A stretch of DNA of 64,000 nt from Spirochaetia bacterium (GTDB lineage: Bacteria > Spirochaetota > Spirochaetia > Treponematales > Rectinemataceae). The notes beneath the pieces are model-generated. The model was not told the DNA's origin. It did no database searches and saw nothing but the letters and a program-made list of their open reading frames with translations. This document shows, one piece after another, positions 32,474 to 44,274 of the stretch. A program made the translations under genes and the position numbers. Each line of letters starts with the position of its first letter. The first letter of the stretch is position 1. The DNA lies in assembly GCA_029975555.1 (NCBI GenBank), contig JARKOY010000021.1:1-64000 (forward strand). The letters run 5' to 3'.

Positions 32474-32545
32474 TGGGCGATATTGGATTTGAACCAATGA
32501 CTTCCACCGTGTGAAGGTGACACTCTCCCACTGAGTTAATCGCCC
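32474..32545 (-). tRNA. tRNA-Val (CAC)
   Basis: On the minus strand a full 72-nt cloverleaf is present. The acceptor stem is GGGCGAT/ATCGCCC, the D stem ACTC/GAGT, the anticodon stem TCACC/GGTGG with loop TTCACAC (anticodon CAC, reading GUG), and the T arm is ATTGG-TTCAAAT-CCAAT. The discriminator is A. CCA is not encoded. A run of six T residues follows about 10 nt downstream. The flanking 32317-32473 stretch holds no other gene. Confidence 0.95.
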
Positions 32546-35663: not shown

Positions 35664-35696
35664 GCGCGGCCTGGCAATTCGCTGGCCGCGCTTTTT
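35664..35696 (+). terminator. Intrinsic terminator of proS
   Basis: GCGCGGCC and GGCCGCGC form a perfect 8-bp stem with a 12-nt loop followed by TTTTT. It begins 9 nt after the proS stop. Confidence 0.85.
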
Positions 35697-36089
35697 CTAC
35701 CAGCCGACCCTGGAAGAGCTCTCCCAGAGGTCCTGCACGAAGAGATTCACCGCCGTATTTCTCGTCGAGGCGAGCACGAGCCGGTCCTGCTGCCCACCCG
35801 ATGTGCCGACGCTCACTGCCGTCGGCGCAGATAAGGTGCTCGACGACCACGAATCGATGAGCACGACATCGCGCGAGGGTCGACCGTTCCAATAAACGCC
35901 CACCAAAAAGCTCGCGACGGCGGCAACCGTCACGATGCTCGCCGACAGGACAAGGCGGCGCACCTTCCGCGGTCGCTGTTCGGCTTTCCGGTACACCTGC
36001 GCAAAATCGGGGAACAAAGGAGCAGACGCCATAGCGCCGTCTCTCAACGCAACCTTGAGATCGATCTTTTTCTTTTCAGTCGAGCTCAT
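35697..36089 (-). CDS. Putative membrane anti-sigma factor
   Basis: A 130-residue protein with a polar, charged N-terminal 45 residues, one membrane helix near residues 46-67 (LSASIVTVAAVASFLVGVYW region) and a Ser/Thr-rich extracytoplasmic C-terminus. No zinc-binding HxxxCxxC motif is present. Its start overlaps the 3' end of the ECF sigma gene by 14 bp, the usual arrangement for a translationally coupled anti-sigma factor. The topology fits that job, but no domain is recognisable, so the call rests on context. Confidence 0.65.
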   Translation of the reverse strand: MSSTEKKKIDLKVALRDGAMASAPLFPDFAQVYRKAEQRPRKVRRLVLSASIVTVAAVASFLVGVYWNGRPSRDVVLIDSWSSSTLSAPTAVSVGTSGGQQDRLVLASTRNTAVNLFVQDLWESSSRVGW

Positions 36090-36753
36090 AGCCCATCTCC
36101 CTGAGCAGTGTGCCCAATTTCTCCCTCGCGCGGAACAGCCTCGATTTTACGGTGCCGAGGGGCAGATTGTACATCGCTCCCAGTTCTGCAAGCCCTTTGC
36201 CCTCCACCTCGTGCAGATAGAGCATCGCTCGGTCCTCTGGATCGAGCTTTTGCATGGCGGCGGCGAGCATCCGACTCGCCTCTTCTTTCAGCACATGCGC
36301 CTCGCCTGTCGTGTGTGGGCTCTCAAGTGAAAGCGACTCGAACGCTTCGACCTGGATGCTGTGCGCATGGTGGCGAGCCAGCCTGCGCACGACGTCGACG
36401 CTCGCCATCCGGCAAATGCCGTACAGATAGGCGCCGAGAGAGCCATCCCTTCGCCACCGAGGCAGGGCCTTGTATATCCTGATGAGCGATTCTTGGGCTG
36501 CCTCTTCGGCGAGATCAGGGTCGAAGGCCACAAAGGCGGCGCAGTAGCCGCGGATGCGGTCCCACCAGCGCCACATGAGCCGCTCGAAGGCTCCTTTGTC
36601 GCCTCTGGAGGCCTCGGCGGCGAGCTCGAGGTCGAAGAGGTCGTCGCCAGCGGCGCCCGAGGCCGACGCTTCTTGGGAGGAGGCCGACGGGAGGCGGCCC
36701 GATTCCTTTTTGCCTGTGCTCATGGCCCGCACCAGTATTTCATCACTGATCAT
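36076..36753 (-). CDS. ECF-family RNA polymerase sigma factor
   Basis: About 225 residues. After an unusual 55-residue Ser/Ala/Gly-rich N-terminus come sigma region 2 (AFERLMWRWWDRIRGY ... EEAAQESLIRIYKALPRW) and region 4 (YNLPLGTVKSRLFRAREKL), the -35-binding helix-turn-helix. There is no sigma 1.1 or region 3, as expected for the extracytoplasmic-function class. The start could be 36753 or 36723; a -10-like TATATT just upstream of 36753 favours 36723, but spacing to the upstream gene fits either. It sits between a Spy/CpxP-like periplasmic gene and the anti-sigma gene. Confidence 0.9.
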   Translation of the reverse strand: MISDEILVRAMSTGKKESGRLPSASSQEASASGAAGDDLFDLELAAEASRGDKGAFERLMWRWWDRIRGYCAAFVAFDPDLAEEAAQESLIRIYKALPRWRRDGSLGAYLYGICRMASVDVVRRLARHHAHSIQVEAFESLSLESPHTTGEAHVLKEEASRMLAAAMQKLDPEDRAMLYLHEVEGKGLAELGAMYNLPLGTVKSRLFRAREKLGTLLREMGYELD

Positions 36754-36782
36754 AAATATACTACTTCTTTGCCTTTGGGGCC

Positions 36783-37331
36783 TCACATGATCTGCCGCAA
36801 TATGGTCAGGAGCCTGCTGTACATGGCCACTTCTTGAGGCCTTAACCCCTTTGCGCTGAAAGAATTCGCAAATTGGCCCATTTTCTCCGACATCCGGGCC
36901 TCGCGCACCAGAAAGAGAATCGTCTGCCAGCGATCCTCTCCCAAAATTTTGCGAATCGCCACCTGCCGCTCAAACTGAATCATCCTCACGGTCTTCTCGT
37001 AGGCAAGGCTCTTCGATATCGCATCCTCGATCGACTTCATGTCAGGGTCGGGATCGAGGAGCATATTCGTCACCTGCGTCTGATAAATTTTGATCTCGTT
37101 CTGGGCCCTGGACAGTTCGAGTTCTCTCGAGTCGAGAACTTTCTCAAGCCTGTCCAAATCGTCTTCGCTGAGGTTCAGTCGGCGGAACCATTCGCGCACC
37201 GCTCCGGAGCCCATCACGCCTTGGTTTCTCATGCCCATGCCTGACCCAGCCTGTGCGTTCGCATAAGGGACATGCACCAATGCGGCGCTGGCCAAAACGA
37301 GCACGAAGACCAAGGCACCTCTCCATCTCAT
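36783..37331 (-). CDS. Periplasmic Spy/CpxP/CnrX-like protein A
   Basis: A 182-residue secreted protein with signal peptide (residues 1-27, ending NAQA). The mature part is almost all helical and charged: a hairpin of long helices (LSEDDLDRLEKVLDSRELEL ... AIRKILGEDRW) with the spacing of the LTxxQ (Spy/CpxP/ZraP/CnrX) family. Those proteins act as periplasmic chaperones or metal sensors that control envelope-stress regulators. Methionine is frequent after the signal peptide. GGAGG lies 8 nt before the ATG at 37331. It heads the operon with the ECF sigma gene 30 nt downstream. Confidence 0.72.
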   Translation of the reverse strand: MRWRGALVFVLVLASAALVHVPYANAQAGSGMGMRNQGVMGSGAVREWFRRLNLSEDDLDRLEKVLDSRELELSRAQNEIKIYQTQVTNMLLDPDPDMKSIEDAISKSLAYEKTVRMIQFERQVAIRKILGEDRWQTILFLVREARMSEKMGQFANSFSAKGLRPQEVAMYSRLLTILRQIM

Positions 37332-37420
37332 CTGTCGTTCCTCCACATTCTTCTATATATTGTGTCGCTGCTCCATGCGTTTCGGTTGCACAATTACAAT
37401 TATCGCACAACATAGAACTG

Positions 37421-37455
37421 AAAAAAGCCGCTCGGCACGGACGGCCGGCGGCTTT
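37421..37455 (-). terminator. Intrinsic terminator of the second Spy-like gene
   Basis: On the minus strand AAAGCCGC and GCGGCTTT form a stem followed by a T run, about 28 nt past the stop at 37483. It separates the two Spy-like genes into different transcripts. Confidence 0.8.
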
Positions 37456-37482
37456 GGCCAAAATTCCAAAAAAGCGCGGGCC

Positions 37483-38022
37483 TTATGCGCCCTTACTTGT
37501 GTCGCTGCTGTTGGTGCTGCGACTCGTGCTGCTGTTGCTGGTGTTCCCTTCAAAAATCTTGTTGATCTCGAGGATGCTGTCCGCACGGATTTGCTGGATC
37601 TGCTTCTGCAGGTCGGCAATCTTGTTGATAGACTCGTCGATCTTGGCTTTGTCGGGGTTGGCGCTCCAGAGCAGCGTATTGAGCGTGAGCCTTTCTGCCC
37701 GGACCTCATTCTGCAGCGGCAGAATCTTGGCCTGGGTGTCCTGCAAGATCTTCACTACTTTATCCTTGTCCGCGGCGGAGAGCGCTTCGAACTTGTAATA
37801 ATACGGGCAGGCGCGTAGGCCATAGGCCTTCATCATTCCTCCGTAGGCCATTGGAGGAACTGCAGGCCCTTTGCCGGGCAAGGCGGGAGGCGCGGGAATC
37901 CGATACCCTCGCGAACCCCAACTCCGCATTCCACCAAACCCCTGGGCAAACGCGCCGGCGGTAGCGGCAATGAGCATCGCACCCACCATCAGAAGCATAA
38001 TCGTCTTTCTCGATATTCTCAT
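37483..38022 (-). CDS. Periplasmic Spy/CpxP-like protein B
   Basis: A 179-residue secreted protein with signal peptide (residues 1-27, ending FAQG). It has a Gly/Pro/Met-rich linker, then a long helical region (LSAADKDKVVKILQDTQ ... EVRAERLTL ... IADLQKQIQQIRADS) and a Ser/Thr-rich tail. The helical spacing resembles protein A encoded at 36783-37331. One cysteine in RACPYYY is the only Cys in the mature protein. GGGAGGAAGG precedes the ATG. It is separated from the sigma operon by a terminator, so it may be a target of that sigma factor rather than a member of the operon; this is inference. Confidence 0.68.
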   Translation of the reverse strand: MRISRKTIMLLMVGAMLIAATAGAFAQGFGGMRSWGSRGYRIPAPPALPGKGPAVPPMAYGGMMKAYGLRACPYYYKFEALSAADKDKVVKILQDTQAKILPLQNEVRAERLTLNTLLWSANPDKAKIDESINKIADLQKQIQQIRADSILEINKIFEGNTSNSSTSRSTNSSDTSKGA

Positions 38023-38136
38023 GTCCTTCCTCCCTTGAAGGTTTGTTGTTCGTTAAAAAGTCGCACGAAGAGAATGCAGGGTTTCATGCAAAGGCCAAAA
38101 GTTATATTTTTTCATGTTCGTCGGGGCCCTTTATTC

Positions 38137-38169
38137 GTGTTCTCAAGCTTGGGTAAAGGTTGAGAACAC
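38137..38169. repeat. Dispersed repeat, copy 3, as an inverted pair
   Basis: GTGTTCTCAA at 38137-38146 and TTGAGAACAC at 38160-38169 are perfect inverted arms. The left arm continues as GCTTGGGTA, matching the copies at 185-203 and 22191-22209. The 311-nt gap 38023-38333 between divergent genes otherwise contains only a plausible promoter (TTGCAC 38225, TATTTA 38248) for the peptidase gene. Confidence 0.55.
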
Positions 38170-38333
38170 TGATGGAGCCCCTCACCCGTTGTTCTTCGAC
38201 GGCCTTGGTGCTTGTGATCTTTCCTTGCACGCCCCGAATCATTACTCTATTTAAAAAAAGAGAGTCAGAAGAAAAGCCTGGCACAGACCGGATTCTCTTT
38301 CTCTCTGCTATTGTCGCAAAACAGGAGTTTCGC

Positions 38334-41300
38334 ATGTCGTTCGTTCTGCAGAAAGAAGCATCTGTCCCCGAACTAGACTCGATCGTCAGACTGTACCGCC
38401 ACGAGCCGACGGGCGCCCGGCTCCTCTCCGTCATCAACAAGGATGAGAACAAGGTTTTCGGCATCACGTTCCGCACGCCCCCACGGCGCAGCGACGGCGT
38501 CGCCCACATCATCGAGCATTCGGTGCTCTGCGGCTCCCGTAAGTATCCGGTCAAAGAGCCTTTCGTAGAGCTCATGAAAGGCTCGCTCAATACCTTTCTC
38601 AATGCGATGACTTATCCCGATAAGACCTGTTATCCCGTGGCCAGCACGAATCTCAAAGACTTCTACAATCTCATCGATGTCTACCTCGATGCAGTCTTCT
38701 ATCCGAATCTCACCGAGCACACCTTCATGCAGGAAGGTTGGCACTACGAGGTGGACCCGGCCACCAAAGCCCTCAGCTACAAGGGTGTCGTCTTCAACGA
38801 GATGAAGGGCGCCTACTCCGATCCTGACGACATGCACGACGATCTCTGCCGGAGAAGCCTTTTTCCCGACACGCCCTACGGGTTCGATTCCGGCGGAGAC
38901 CCGTTGGAAATTCCTTCGCTCACCTACGAGGAATTCGTGGACTTCCACACAACATATTATCATCCGTCGAATTCCTTCATTTTCTTCTACGGCGACGACG
39001 ACCCCGACACGCGCCTTGCCATGATGGAAGACTGGCTCGCTCCCTTCGGACAAGCCACGATCGAATCCTTGCCGGCCGCACAGTCAGGCTTTTCCGCACC
39101 GCGCCACCTCGAGTACAGCTACCAGGCGACCGACGGGGAGAGCGCTAAGGCTTACGCTGCCGTCAACTGGGCCCTCTACGAACACGGGGAGCCCGAGCTT
39201 TCGATGAAGGCCTCGGTTCTGTTCCATATTTTGACCGGGACGCCCGCTTCGCCGCTGCGCAAAGCGCTGATCGACTCGGGGCTCGGCGAGGACCTCGCCG
39301 GCTTCGGCTTCTCCGAAGAGCTGCGCCAGACGGCATTCTCGATCGGGCTTAAGGGTGTGGATCCTCCCAGCGTCGCCGACGTCGAAGCGCTCATCTTGTC
39401 GACGCTTGGGCAGCTCGCGCGGAACGGCATCGATGCCGATACCGTCGCAGCCTCGATCAACACCCTGGAATTCGCCCTCCGCGAGAAGAATACCGGGCGC
39501 TTTCCGCGCGGGTTGGCCATCATGCTCGACGCGCTCAACGACTGGCTCTACGACCACGATCCCGTCGCGGCCATCTCCTTTGCGGAGCCGCTTGCAAGGG
39601 TCAAAAAGGCTGCCGCCGAAAACCCGAGGCTCTTCAGCGACCTCATCGATGCGCTCCTCCTGCGCAACACCCACCGCACCACGGTCGTGCTCCTGCCTTC
39701 GGCCGACGCCGCCAAGGCGCGGGAAGAAAAGGAAAAGGCCATGCTCGCCCGGGCGCAGGCTGGGCTCGACGCACAGGCGCTCCAAGAGATAGAGAAGACC
39801 GCGACGACGCTCAAAACCTTGCAGGACACGCCCGACAGTCCGGAAGCGCTGGCCACAATTCCGGTCCTCTCTCTCGACGACATTCCGAAACAGGCGCCCG
39901 TGCTTCCTTCCGAGCCGCTGGAACTGGGGATCGGCGCAAAGGCACTTCCACGCATGGCTTCAGAGGGCGCCACCGAGGTTGGACTCCGCGCGTACTACCA
40001 CGAGCTTGCGACGAGCGGCATTTTATACCTGGATCTAGGCTTCGACTTCGGCGCGCTCGAGTCGAAACTGTTGCCCTACGTGAGCCTCTTGGGACGCTTC
40101 TTGCTCGAGATGGGCACCGATAAAGAAAATTTCGTGCAGCTTATCCAACGTATCGGCATGCACACCGGCGGCATACGGGGCGCCTCGGTGTCCGCGACAT
40201 CCTGGGAGACCAAAAAGCCTGTGCCATGGTTCTTCTTGCGGGCCAAGGCCCTGCCCGAAAAGGCCTCGGTGCTGGCGGACATCCTGGAGGACGTTTTGGT
40301 GCGCTCCCGGTTCGACGACCGCGAGCGCGTGCGGCAAATCGTGCTCGAAGAAAAGGCCCAGACAGAGGCGATGCTCGTGCCGGCCTCGGCACGTATCGTC
40401 GGCCTCAGGCTGCGCTCGCGCTACAATGCCGCCGACTGGGCTTCCGAGCGCCTCTACGGGATTGAGCACCTGTTCTTCCTGCGCGACCTGGCGCGGCGCA
40501 TCGAGGAGGATTGGCCTTCAGTGCTGGCCGACATGGAAGAGCTCCGCGGCGCGCTCATCAGCCGCGACAATCTCCTTGTGAACGTGACCGCGGACAGAGC
40601 GACGCTCGAGGCTTCCAAGGACGCCATCGCGCGCATAGCCAGCGCGCTTCCTTCGCGCCGCGCATCCTCCACGTCGGAAGCAAGCGCGCCCGCTTTTGGC
40701 ACATCCTGGATCGACGATGCGCTCGCAGCCAGCGAGGCTTCCGCGCTCCGCCCAGGCCTCGAAACGCTCGAACTGCCGACCCAAGTGAACAGCGTCGGCA
40801 TGATTCTGCCACTTCGGAATCTCCACGAGGCGGCCGGCGGTGCCTATGTCGTCACCAAATATCTCGATGCCGTCTACCTGTGGGGACAGGTGCGCGTCAT
40901 GGGCGGGGCCTACGGCGGCTACTCCAGCATCGACCTGGCCTCCGGCCTCCTCATGCTGCTCTCGTACCGCGATCCCAACCTCGAGCGCACCATCGAGGTA
41001 TACCGCAAGGTCTCGGACTACCTGCAATCGACCGAAGTTTCAAATGACGAAATACACAAGGCCATCATTGGAACCATCGGAGAGCTCGACGCGTACCAGC
41101 TTCCGGACGCCAAAGGCTTCAACGCGCTCATGAACGAGCTCACCGGCTATACACAAGAAGCGCGCCAGGCCATCCGCGACCAAATATTGGCCGCAGACGC
41201 CGGCGATTTCCGCCGCCTCGGCGCAATGATCGAAGAGGCGCTGGAGCGCTCGATGACGGTGGCGCTGGCCGCGCCGGAACGCGTAGAAAAGGCCTTGCCG

Positions 41301-41339
41301 GCGCTGCCAAAGCCAGTCGAGCGCCTCTCAGTGTATTGA
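38334..41339 (+). CDS. M16C zinc metallopeptidase, PreP/presequence-protease type
   Basis: A 1001-residue single-chain peptidase with no signal peptide, so probably cytosolic. The inverted zinc motif HxxEH is HIIEH at residues 58-62, with the distal ligand Glu in the VVFNEMKGAYSD segment near residue 158. Like PreP and its bacterial relatives it contains four homologous domains joined by a charged linker near residues 460-490. The family degrades peptides in an enclosed chamber. AGGAG lies 6 nt before the ATG at 38334; the longer frame upstream overlaps the repeat and is non-coding. It is convergent with, and overlaps by 12 bp, a second M16 gene. Confidence 0.93.
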   Translation: MSFVLQKEASVPELDSIVRLYRHEPTGARLLSVINKDENKVFGITFRTPPRRSDGVAHIIEHSVLCGSRKYPVKEPFVELMKGSLNTFLNAMTYPDKTCYPVASTNLKDFYNLIDVYLDAVFYPNLTEHTFMQEGWHYEVDPATKALSYKGVVFNEMKGAYSDPDDMHDDLCRRSLFPDTPYGFDSGGDPLEIPSLTYEEFVDFHTTYYHPSNSFIFFYGDDDPDTRLAMMEDWLAPFGQATIESLPAAQSGFSAPRHLEYSYQATDGESAKAYAAVNWALYEHGEPELSMKASVLFHILTGTPASPLRKALIDSGLGEDLAGFGFSEELRQTAFSIGLKGVDPPSVADVEALILSTLGQLARNGIDADTVAASINTLEFALREKNTGRFPRGLAIMLDALNDWLYDHDPVAAISFAEPLARVKKAAAENPRLFSDLIDALLLRNTHRTTVVLLPSADAAKAREEKEKAMLARAQAGLDAQALQEIEKTATTLKTLQDTPDSPEALATIPVLSLDDIPKQAPVLPSEPLELGIGAKALPRMASEGATEVGLRAYYHELATSGILYLDLGFDFGALESKLLPYVSLLGRFLLEMGTDKENFVQLIQRIGMHTGGIRGASVSATSWETKKPVPWFFLRAKALPEKASVLADILEDVLVRSRFDDRERVRQIVLEEKAQTEAMLVPASARIVGLRLRSRYNAADWASERLYGIEHLFFLRDLARRIEEDWPSVLADMEELRGALISRDNLLVNVTADRATLEASKDAIARIASALPSRRASSTSEASAPAFGTSWIDDALAASEASALRPGLETLELPTQVNSVGMILPLRNLHEAAGGAYVVTKYLDAVYLWGQVRVMGGAYGGYSSIDLASGLLMLLSYRDPNLERTIEVYRKVSDYLQSTEVSNDEIHKAIIGTIGELDAYQLPDAKGFNALMNELTGYTQEARQAIRDQILAADAGDFRRLGAMIEEALERSMTVALAAPERVEKALPALPKPVERLSVY

Positions 41340-42788
41340 CTCGAAGGCTGCAGGATCGAGCTTGTCGAGCAGCGCCTGATCCCCAACCGCGGCCCACAGG
41401 AAAGCGCCGTTCATGAAGTACGTATCGAAGGCCTTCTGGACAGCCGGCGCGTCGAGCATTTCGATGCGCGCTTGATCCTTGAGCCAGTCTGCGGGGTCCC
41501 CAGTCAGCCGCACCGAACGGATCATCAGCGAGGCGATGCCAGCATTGTTGCGCACCGCCTCGAAATAGTCGTTCATATAGAGCTGTTTGTACGTGTCGAT
41601 TGCCTCGGCGATCGGCATATAGCCGTCGCCCTCGGTCTTCGCCGGGTCTACGGAAACCACCCGTCCTCTCGCCATCAGCTGCGCCGCCTCGTCGATGTAG
41701 GCCTTAATTTTGTCCGGCGCGTTCGTCTTGTACATCATGACGGAACCATAATTGGCCGAGAATCCCCGAATCGTCGCCGAAGGCGTGTAGACTGCGCCGT
41801 ACTTGTCGCGCACCACCGAGAAGAGCAGGTCCGAAAAAATGCGCGCGGCGAGCGCCGTCGCGAAATAATCATCCCTTCCGGGGGCGGGCGCCGCAAAGTC
41901 GCCCCTCAGGTAGATCGTCCCCTTCGACTGATCGTGCGCCTTGGTGATGAGCGTCCCCGACGGCCCCATCGGGAAGGCCGCCGGCTTCGGTACCGCGCCG
42001 AGCCGCAGGTCCGGGATGTTCCCCAACAGCCCATCCAGCTTGCGCGCCAGCTCCGCAGGATCGAAGTCCCCCACGGCCACCACGAAGATCCTATCCGCCG
42101 AGAAATGCTCCCTGTACCATTGGCGGGCATCGCCGGCCGTCATGGACTCGATGCTCTCTTCGGCACCTTCAGGATTCACCCCGTAAGGATGCCCTTTAAA
42201 ATAGACCTCATTGATGATCTTCTGCGTCGTCGACCAGGGATTCTGATCCATCGCCTGGAGCGCGAGCGACGCATCCTCTTTGCTCTTGTCGAAGTCTGCC
42301 TGGTCGAACGAGGGGGCGGTGAGCATATCGCCCCACAAGTCGAGGAGTTCATCGCGATATTTGTCGAGCGTGGTCAGGCTGAAAGTCGAGTACTCAAACT
42401 GCACCGCCGCGGCGATGTTCGAAGACCTGCGATCTAGGATCGCGGCGGCCCTTTCGTACGGGTAGTGCTGCGAGCTCCGGGCCATGGTGGTGAGCGCGAT
42501 CTTTTCCCAGCCGGCGCGCTCAGGAGGCGTCACCAGCGAGCCTCCATTCAGCACGAGCGAAATATAGAACACCCGATTTGCGTTCTGCACCTTCATGTAG
42601 ACGGGTATGCCGTTGGAAAGGACCGCCTTCGTGAAGGTCGGGGCGTTTTCGCGCACGAAGGCGGTCTGGGCGCCCGCGCCCGCCGCAACGATCGACAAGA
42701 ACACCAGCACCGCGATCCATTGCAGAAGGCGCACAAGCCTCAACGATCCCACAACGCCCCGTCTCTGGAATTTCGTCGCATATTTCAT
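41328..42788 (-). CDS. M16-family protein lacking the zinc site (non-catalytic partner)
   Basis: A 486-residue secreted protein (membrane-type signal segment at residues 18-41). It has the M16 two-domain fold, but the position of the HxxEH motif reads KIALT at residues 96-100, so it cannot bind zinc. The C-terminal half retains the family's substrate-contact pattern (VVRDKYGAVYTPSATIRGF). Bacterial periplasmic M16B proteins are often encoded as a catalytic/non-catalytic pair forming a heterodimer, and the active partner lies 10 nt upstream. GGAGG precedes the ATG by 5 nt. Confidence 0.88.
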   Translation of the reverse strand: MKYATKFQRRGVVGSLRLVRLLQWIAVLVFLSIVAAGAGAQTAFVRENAPTFTKAVLSNGIPVYMKVQNANRVFYISLVLNGGSLVTPPERAGWEKIALTTMARSSQHYPYERAAAILDRRSSNIAAAVQFEYSTFSLTTLDKYRDELLDLWGDMLTAPSFDQADFDKSKEDASLALQAMDQNPWSTTQKIINEVYFKGHPYGVNPEGAEESIESMTAGDARQWYREHFSADRIFVVAVGDFDPAELARKLDGLLGNIPDLRLGAVPKPAAFPMGPSGTLITKAHDQSKGTIYLRGDFAAPAPGRDDYFATALAARIFSDLLFSVVRDKYGAVYTPSATIRGFSANYGSVMMYKTNAPDKIKAYIDEAAQLMARGRVVSVDPAKTEGDGYMPIAEAIDTYKQLYMNDYFEAVRNNAGIASLMIRSVRLTGDPADWLKDQARIEMLDAPAVQKAFDTYFMNGAFLWAAVGDQALLDKLDPAAFESIH

Positions 42789-42798
42789 GTCAGCCTCC

Positions 42799-44274
42799 TC
42801 AACGCTGCTGCCACCAGAAGGCATTCTGTGCGGTGACCCGAGTGTAGCCGAGCTCCTTGATATTCGCGTCCATGCGAGGGTCGGCATCGAACGTGCTCGT
42901 GCGCAGCCGCACCAAGGTCGCCGCAGGCCCCGTCAAATATTTCTTTATGAGCGCAGAAATATCCTCCCAGGTGACCTTTCTGCAGTTCGCCTCGTAGTTG
43001 AAAAAATACTCCGTGCCGGCCGTGGACCACCAGAATGTGAGCGTATCCGTCACAAAGGAGCCTGCGGATTCGAGCGCATAGATGTTCTGATCGACCAGCT
43101 TCGTCTTGGCCTCCTCGAGCGCGCCATCCCCAAAATAGGCCTGGGGGTCGGCCGCAATCCGTGCAAACTCGTCCAGCACGGTCTTTCGAAGGTTCTCCAC
43201 GCGCTGGAGCACAGGCTCCTCGGTCGCGGGCTTCTGCACGAGCATATAGGTCGAAAAAATGTAATTTCCTCCATCCCGCGCCGTCGGATACGTAAAATCG
43301 ATGTACTCCGCATCGTACAGGCCGAACACCTTCCTCATTATCTCGGACTTGAAGGGCCCCGAGGGCGACGACAGCAAAAAAAGCAGAACGTCGGACACAT
43401 AGGTGTCGAAGGTCTGGCGCGTCACGTCGGGCCCCCTCCAGCGGAACTGAACCTGCGCGATTCCCCTATAGAACTGATCTTCGGCGGTCACGAGCCGGAT
43501 GCCCTCAGGGATCGGCCCCTGGGCAGGCTCGGCGAGCTCCGGCTGGGGCGCCATGGCCCATGTTCCGAACGACGCCTCCGCAAGCGCCTTCACCTCCTCC
43601 AGCGTCGTGTCCCCGCCGACGAGCAGGGCCGTGTTGCTGGGCACATAATAGGTCCTCTGCATGTCGCGCAGCTCGGCGACCGTGGCATGCTCGATATTCG
43701 ACTCAGGGCCGTCGATATTCTTGCGCCATGGGAATGTGCTGAACATCCGCGATTCAAGGGCATTCGACGCGATCTGTCCAGGGTCGCTGTGATACCCGCG
43801 GATTTCGTTGAGCACGACCTGCTTCTCATTCTCGAGCACCGTTTGGTCGAGGGTGGGGCTCATGACGGCGTGGGCCCAAAAATCGACCGCATCGGCGAGT
43901 TTCTCCGAAGGCACCGTGATGTAGTAATTGATGTACTCCCTGCCGGTCGCGCCGTTCCAGCTCGTCGTGCCCATGCGGTTGAGCGCCGCGGTGAAGGCTT
44001 CCTTCGTCGGGTATTTGTCGTTGCCGTTGAACATCATGTGCTCGTACAAATGGAATAATCCCGCCGTCTCGGGCGTCTGCGCGAGGGCTCCCGCCCTGAA
44101 AGCCACGCACACGGTGACGAGCGGCACCGCATGATTTTCCACCACGAAGACCTCAAGCCCGTTGTCGAGCGTCGCATTCCGCACCGCATTTTCCTGAGCC
44201 AGAACGAGGCTCGGGAACAGCAGTGCCGCCACCAGCACGAACACGAAACCCAACCTCATCTTGTTTCGTCTCAT
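42799..44274 (-). CDS. M16B zinc metallopeptidase (catalytic partner)
   Basis: A 491-residue secreted peptidase with signal peptide (residues 1-27, ending LAQ). The inverted zinc motif is HLYEH at residues 75-79, and the distal Glu ligand is in ENEKQVVLNEI near residue 150. The C-terminal domain is normal. AAGGAGGT lies 10 nt before the ATG at 44274. Together with the zinc-less partner 10 nt downstream it should form an active periplasmic heterodimer that degrades peptides. Both M16B genes point toward the unrelated PreP-like gene. Confidence 0.93.
   Translation of the reverse strand: MRRNKMRLGFVFVLVAALLFPSLVLAQENAVRNATLDNGLEVFVVENHAVPLVTVCVAFRAGALAQTPETAGLFHLYEHMMFNGNDKYPTKEAFTAALNRMGTTSWNGATGREYINYYITVPSEKLADAVDFWAHAVMSPTLDQTVLENEKQVVLNEIRGYHSDPGQIASNALESRMFSTFPWRKNIDGPESNIEHATVAELRDMQRTYYVPSNTALLVGGDTTLEEVKALAEASFGTWAMAPQPELAEPAQGPIPEGIRLVTAEDQFYRGIAQVQFRWRGPDVTRQTFDTYVSDVLLFLLSSPSGPFKSEIMRKVFGLYDAEYIDFTYPTARDGGNYIFSTYMLVQKPATEEPVLQRVENLRKTVLDEFARIAADPQAYFGDGALEEAKTKLVDQNIYALESAGSFVTDTLTFWWSTAGTEYFFNYEANCRKVTWEDISALIKKYLTGPAATLVRLRTSTFDADPRMDANIKELGYTRVTAQNAFWWQQR

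Follow-up and report, generated by a model that had tools for sequence, protein, structure and literature searches.

A spirochaete operon encoding a Spy-type protein, an ECF sigma factor and a candidate anti-sigma factor, and its possible part in an envelope-stress response

Only for a few ECF sigma systems is it known how conditions in the periplasm are perceived. Among those that stand closest to the locus described here, and as far as the parts of the sources considered here describe them, the CirY/CirZ-Spy system of Phocaeicola vulgatus is an operon of sigma, anti-sigma and Spy-like genes, whose sigma factor activates its own operon together with spy (PMC13114119). CnrYXH of Cupriavidus metallidurans combines a Spy-fold periplasmic protein with a short single-pass anti-sigma factor and an ECF sigma factor under autoregulation (PMC4598750, PMC7406223, PMC9045368), and SigAb-AabA-AabB of Acinetobacter is associated with copper stress and has a membrane anti-sigma factor of 107 aa (PMC12153292). 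An operon of Azospirillum is known by annotation as RpoE8, a hypothetical protein and a periplasmic heavy metal sensor (PMC12826043). No account of such a module appears among the open-licence papers listed for spirochaetes on ECF factors together with Spy or other chaperones of the periplasm.

Gene layout, component proteins and the question of metal sensing

The window, which is the whole stretch of 64,000 nucleotides that was analysed, comes from a genome close to Rectinema; among the relatives carrying the sigma gene, Rectinema subterraneum has a sigma factor 73% identical to the one found here. The minus strand carries four genes in tandem: spyD, spyC, the gene of the ECF sigma factor and one that encodes a small membrane protein. 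The gene spyD (37,483–38,022) encodes a secreted Spy/ZraP-type periplasmic protein of 179 aa and forms a separate transcription unit. The operon proper begins with spyC (36,783–37,331), coding for a Spy-like periplasmic protein of 182 aa that is proposed here as the sensor, and continues with the sigma gene (36,076–36,753; 225 aa from the ATG common to relatives) and the gene of the anti-sigma candidate (35,697–36,089), the last two overlapping by 14 bases. The operon of Spy-like, ECF sigma and anti-sigma genes that the first-pass annotation described is thereby confirmed, with all its genes on the minus strand. As for the starts, the ATG of spyC at 37,331 matches relatives, and a GTG at 37,346 is likewise open; the sigma gene has an alternative open GTG at 36,786.

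Between the two Spy genes, an intrinsic-terminator-like hairpin followed by a U-run occupies positions 37,421–37,452 of the minus strand, and similar hairpins occur in relatives. The folding z of the hairpin is only −1.75 in the window, against −4.89 in a relative (L042), and the consensus terminator scan does not list it.

The surroundings of the module recur as well. In the window and in relatives it has as neighbours what we presume to be genes for a prolyl-tRNA synthetase-like protein and for M16-like peptidases; two convergent, related genes of the latter kind (38,160–42,887) adjoin the module in the window and are near it in many relatives. A GC-rich hairpin at 35,664–35,691, with a T-run on the plus strand only, separates the anti-sigma gene from the convergent synthetase-like gene, and a tRNA gene lies on the minus strand at 32,474–32,545. 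Some relatives have an insert between spyD and the M16-like peptidase gene (L042:11,851–13,964, and the same place in L044 and L046) that is not present in the window. It comprises a second ECF sigma gene and the genes of two further proteins, one containing CBM48 and weakly matching zf-HC2, the other secreted-looking and 269 aa long.

SpyD matches the Pfam family PF13801 (Metal_resist) above its cut-off, at 3.5e-9, and its profile matches ZraP (3lay) at 7.6e-6. SpyC scores below the PF13801 cut-off (1.1e-5; 26.0 vs 29.2 bits), and its profile search of the PDB returned nothing significant; SpyC and SpyD are nonetheless homologous proteins of the Spy/ZraP type, whose profiles align with one another in hhalign (96.8%, 3e-10). 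Both proteins start with an apparent signal peptide, as judged by eye from the sequence. One point of the first-pass annotation needs correction: the LTxxQ motif of Spy/CpxP/ZraP proteins, in its literal form, occurs in neither of the window translations. The SpyC model has a pLDDT of 80.5, with residues 41–182 mostly above 85 and the first 36 residues below 50. It superposes on ZraP at 1.3 Å over 76 columns, and it reaches Z 8.0 with CnrX (99 residues), 7.4 with CpxP (104 residues) and 7.2 with Spy (95 residues), values of 7–8 that are not decisive for helical bundles, many unrelated helical proteins attaining the same range; a Foldseek search of the PDB gave weak matches, the best being a ZraP chain at E = 0.19. 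The likeness of the modelled SpyC to ZraP, CnrX, CpxP and Spy is consistent with one fold family, of which such scores by themselves are no proof.

Pfam recognises sigma-70 regions 2 and 4 in the sigma protein (6.3e-8 and 2.9e-12), which also matches the NCBIfam model TIGR02937 sigma70-ECF over the cut-off (5.8e-20); having these two regions without region 3, it belongs to the ECF type. The nearest solved structures are AlgU (6in7, 114.4 bits) and RpoE (1or7, 96.9 bits), and its score with CnrH is 54.5 bits (4cxf).

These comparisons bear on whether the module senses metal in the manner of Cnr, metal-bound SpyC releasing the sigma factor as CnrX does with Ni and Co. The first-pass annotation had drawn the parallel with CnrYXH, and what stands of it is the general layout: gene content and topology are alike, the fold of CnrX resembles the SpyC model, and PF13801 is itself named Heavy-metal resistance. 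A closer likeness is not supported. When CnrY, CnrX and CnrH were read from pMOL28 and compared by hhalign, neither SpyC with CnrX (0.9%) nor the anti-sigma candidate with CnrY (0.1%) gave a match, and the homology of the sigma factor to CnrH (98.3%) is an ordinary ECF match, for a protein that is nearer AlgU and RpoE. The metal ligands of CnrX include histidines, and no column of His or Cys reaches 50% in 21 SpyC or 8 SpyD sequences. In the Cupriavidus metallidurans locus, cnrCBAT follows cnrYXH; no efflux genes adjoin the module in the window or in relatives. Ligand conservation and the comparison with the real Cnr proteins thus leave metal sensing unsupported, and we regard a Cnr-type switch as improbable. 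Within the genus, a Met-rich stretch follows the signal peptide, which may allow for weak sensing of Cu(I) or of an oxidant. The module seems to be a small envelope-stress circuit, not a metal sensor, and where labels such as "heavy-metal resistance" or "periplasmic heavy metal sensor" stand beside sigma genes, they warrant no inference of metal sensing unless ligand residues are present.

Linkage across the phylum and predicted promoters

Around relatives of the sigma gene, 20 stretches were retrieved, and every one has a spyC-type gene next to that of the sigma factor. As those stretches had been picked through the sigma gene, the reverse search was run with the SpyC profile against 296 Spirochaetota genomes, and gave 28 loci in 27 of them. 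An ECF sigma gene is present within the 1.5-kb flanks of every one of them (28/28), and in 26 it lies directly downstream of spy on the same strand, L123 and L130 being the exceptions. Genomes outside the building of the profile account for 25 of the loci, with the sigma gene directly downstream in 23, and genomes used for the profile account for the other three. The first-pass annotation had named unlinked Spy and sigma genes in relatives as what would speak against its reading; the linkage is kept throughout the SpyC-profile loci. A blanket association of PF13801 proteins with sigma genes, on the other hand, was weakened by the family-wide control, an ECF sigma gene standing alongside in 14 of the 30 PF13801 loci that were given, which are fewer than all matches in the phylum. 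The sigma linkage accordingly belongs to the SpyC subfamily and to some others.

The two transcription units in the window are preceded, on the minus strand, by closely similar predicted promoters that would depend on the sigma factor: TGCAACC-N16-CGAC at 37,364–37,390 for spyC, sigma and anti-sigma genes, and TGAAACC-N16-CGAC at 38,060–38,086 for spyD. The regions upstream of 37,331 and 38,022 have a motif in common, TGNAACC-N16-CGAC. Its shorter form AAC-N17-CGAC, sought within 150 bases upstream of the gene, occurs before spyC in 18 of 21 loci (shuffled rate 0.0067 per upstream region) and before spyD in 8 of 8 (shuffled rate 0.011). The three loci lacking it before spyC (L048, L049 and L050) are of the same genus, and all three have it before spyD. 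In L048 and L049 there is a hairpin between spyD and spyC, but the T-run behind it is broken, and for this reason read-through from spyD into spyC is possible in these two.

The more distant loci (L107–L129) were covered by an unguided search for spaced words. In 11 of 21 loci it detected GAACC-N16-GGT(C) ahead of spy, the maximum among shuffles being 5; the shuffles were simple letter shuffles and related genomes are included, so that 11/21 overstates independence. This word pair keeps the −35 part and the spacing and differs from CGAC in the −10 part, a form reminiscent of the SigW/SigX type of ECF promoter in Bacillus.

That Spy and sigma genes are neighbours by chance, and that the motif is a coincidence, could be argued from the genome of the window, where 9 of the 11 strict matches to TGNAACC-N16-CGAC (5 for the reversed control pattern) are in places where a promoter is unexpected: eight inside long ORFs and one, in L066, at convergent gene ends. 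The counts for promoters, linkage and distant loci given above contradict this explanation, which we consider vanishingly improbable. The remaining two strict matches are those of spyC and spyD, the only ones placed as promoters, so the predicted target set consists of the operon itself and spyD. Since the same promoter precedes both units and is so placed only there, the spyC-sigma-anti-sigma operon is likely to be autoregulated and spyD is likely to be a member of the regulon, a membership that the earlier annotation had already thought likely and that the common promoter supports.

Searches for further members of the regulon used the strict motif in the genome and the genus, and a family form of it, GGAACC-N16-CGACTA, in 30 genomes; they counted exact matches alone and may miss weaker targets. 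The latter pattern gave 16 matches, four of them before spyC-type genes (L181, L187, L188 and L192). Of the 12 that remain, one (L193) is outside long ORFs, with only a weak ORF 130 bases onward, and 11 fall within a long ORF of one strand or the other. Three of these 11 (L186, L194 and L195) recur at a single place, shortly ahead of a conserved gene that looks like one for a ribosomal protein, and are probably coding sequence.

The candidate anti-sigma factor and a proposed circuit

The protein encoded after the sigma factor has a cytoplasmic part of about 44 residues, one hydrophobic, membrane-spanning segment near residues 47–65, and a periplasmic tail ending FVQDLWESS. No significant family match was found for it in Pfam or NCBIfam, its profile search of the PDB gave nothing significant, and its model is poor (pLDDT 48). 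It has in common with RseA that it is a single-pass membrane protein encoded together with the sigma factor, and an ORF with a single membrane segment follows the sigma gene directly in 41 of 47 loci, a tally in which G032 and G035 are counted twice and in which some of the six loci without such an ORF are truncated by the end of a contig or stretch. When the window protein is aligned with 17 relatives, most members share an FPDF-type segment on the cytoplasmic side and an LW segment at the C-terminus; a second alignment, covering 15 distant loci, has tails that end D..ID..L..R. In both, the conserved tail segment is the extreme periplasmic C-terminus, behind a variable linker, and this position suggests a periplasmic partner.

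In two loci (L110 and L111), a longer membrane protein, of 166 and 169 aa, follows the sigma gene beside the same Spy-sigma pair; it contains a stretch HLKNCPAC or HLKNCKKC, which is HxxxCxxC-like and resembles a zinc-binding anti-sigma domain. Taken with the two sets of tails, this form suggests that Spy and sigma are a fixed pair, and that the head of the inhibitor can vary. An RseP-type (site-2) protease gene is present in the genome of the window (Peptidase_M50, 8e-56). The same genome encodes a protease with PDZ-like repeats (L066:2,209–3,027), presumably HtrA/DegP-like from its translation, which is a possible site-1 protease for the anti-sigma factor.

What the DNA shows directly are the component genes and how they are linked, the promoter motifs, the conservation of the tails and the presence of the RseP-type gene; from these we infer the interactions, the signal and the cleavage of the model that we consider best, an autoregulated envelope-stress operon in which SpyC guards the tail of the anti-sigma factor, and to which we give about an even chance. 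The single-pass membrane protein would be the anti-sigma factor and would hold the sigma factor through its cytoplasmic part of about 44 residues, and periplasmic SpyC would bind and protect its conserved C-terminal segment. Unfolded or misfolded envelope proteins would compete for SpyC and titrate it off the anti-sigma factor, which, once unguarded, could be cleaved, a protease gene of the RseP type being present, and so release the sigma factor. Free sigma factor would then lead to more SpyC, SpyD, sigma factor and inhibitor, with SpyC resetting the switch and SpyD serving as an extra chaperone.

The main alternative makes SpyC a mere output: the sigma and anti-sigma factors would sense stress by themselves and bring about the production of two Spy chaperones. 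Such an arrangement has a parallel in Phocaeicola, where CirY is described as driving mainly itself, spy and two neighbours (PMC13114119), and it would suit SpyD, which has the same promoter and is nearly confined to the genus, being encoded in 10 of 10 genomes there with just a weak match outside (G024). It accounts less well for SpyC, which accompanies the sigma factor at all 28 loci of the phylum whatever the type of inhibitor, and which, in each of the 7 genomes compared, shows stronger conservation than SpyD; the C-terminal segment kept behind a variable linker, with the periplasmic partner that it suggests, also argues against it. We hold the output-only explanation to be possible, though somewhat doubtful.

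If SpyC does guard the anti-sigma factor, a sigma factor would have a Spy chaperone as its direct sensor of stress, and the conserved tail segments and matched promoters make this idea testable in E. coli with four small genes. We tentatively extend it to the phylum, with some doubt, as a set of minimal chaperone thermostats, in which a Spy-fold protein would be the stress sensor, the anti-sigma factor would be very short and have its conserved C-terminal segment caged by that protein, the promoters of the sigma factor would be confined to roughly its own operon and one Spy copy, and the inhibitor would be swappable with the Spy-sigma pair constant. Sensor, effector and feedback would then be one protein.

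Comparison with known systems

RseB, of the RpoE-RseA-RseB system of E. coli, is not known to have the Spy fold. The likeness to that system consists in the kind of sigma factor, which is the nearest, and in a periplasmic guard of the anti-sigma factor, as proposed here; in the parts of the sources considered, RseA of E. coli is longer (217 aa), and the target set predicted here is far smaller than that of RpoE (PMC12153292, PMC8103513). The features of CnrYXH listed at the outset have their counterparts, predicted ones as regards the fold and the autoregulation, in the spirochaete module, which differs in its gene order and in having neither efflux pump genes nor conserved His/Cys.

With SigAb-AabA-AabB the module shares a sigma factor, a membrane anti-sigma factor and a periplasmic third partner, as well as overlapping genes and autoregulation, which is predicted here; in that system the periplasmic gene comes last, with no homology to Spy stated in the part of the account considered, whereas here a Spy-type gene comes first (PMC12153292). 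By analogy, it may be taken as a precedent for a short anti-sigma factor being joined by a third component in the periplasm. The RpoE8 operon of Azospirillum follows, by its annotation, the same three-gene logic; it is alphaproteobacterial, and its Spy-like gene is last (PMC12826043).

CirYZ-Spy likewise brings together an ECF sigma factor, an anti-sigma factor and a Spy-like chaperone, and has a second Spy paralogue. Unlike the spirochaete module, it belongs to another phylum and has Spy after the sigma/anti-sigma pair, not first, and the second Spy of Phocaeicola has a sigma/anti-sigma pair of its own, whereas spyD stands alone, under the same promoter as the operon (PMC13114119). Operons of sigma, anti-sigma and Spy genes have thus already been published, and the spirochaete module is a variant of them in which SpyC comes first.
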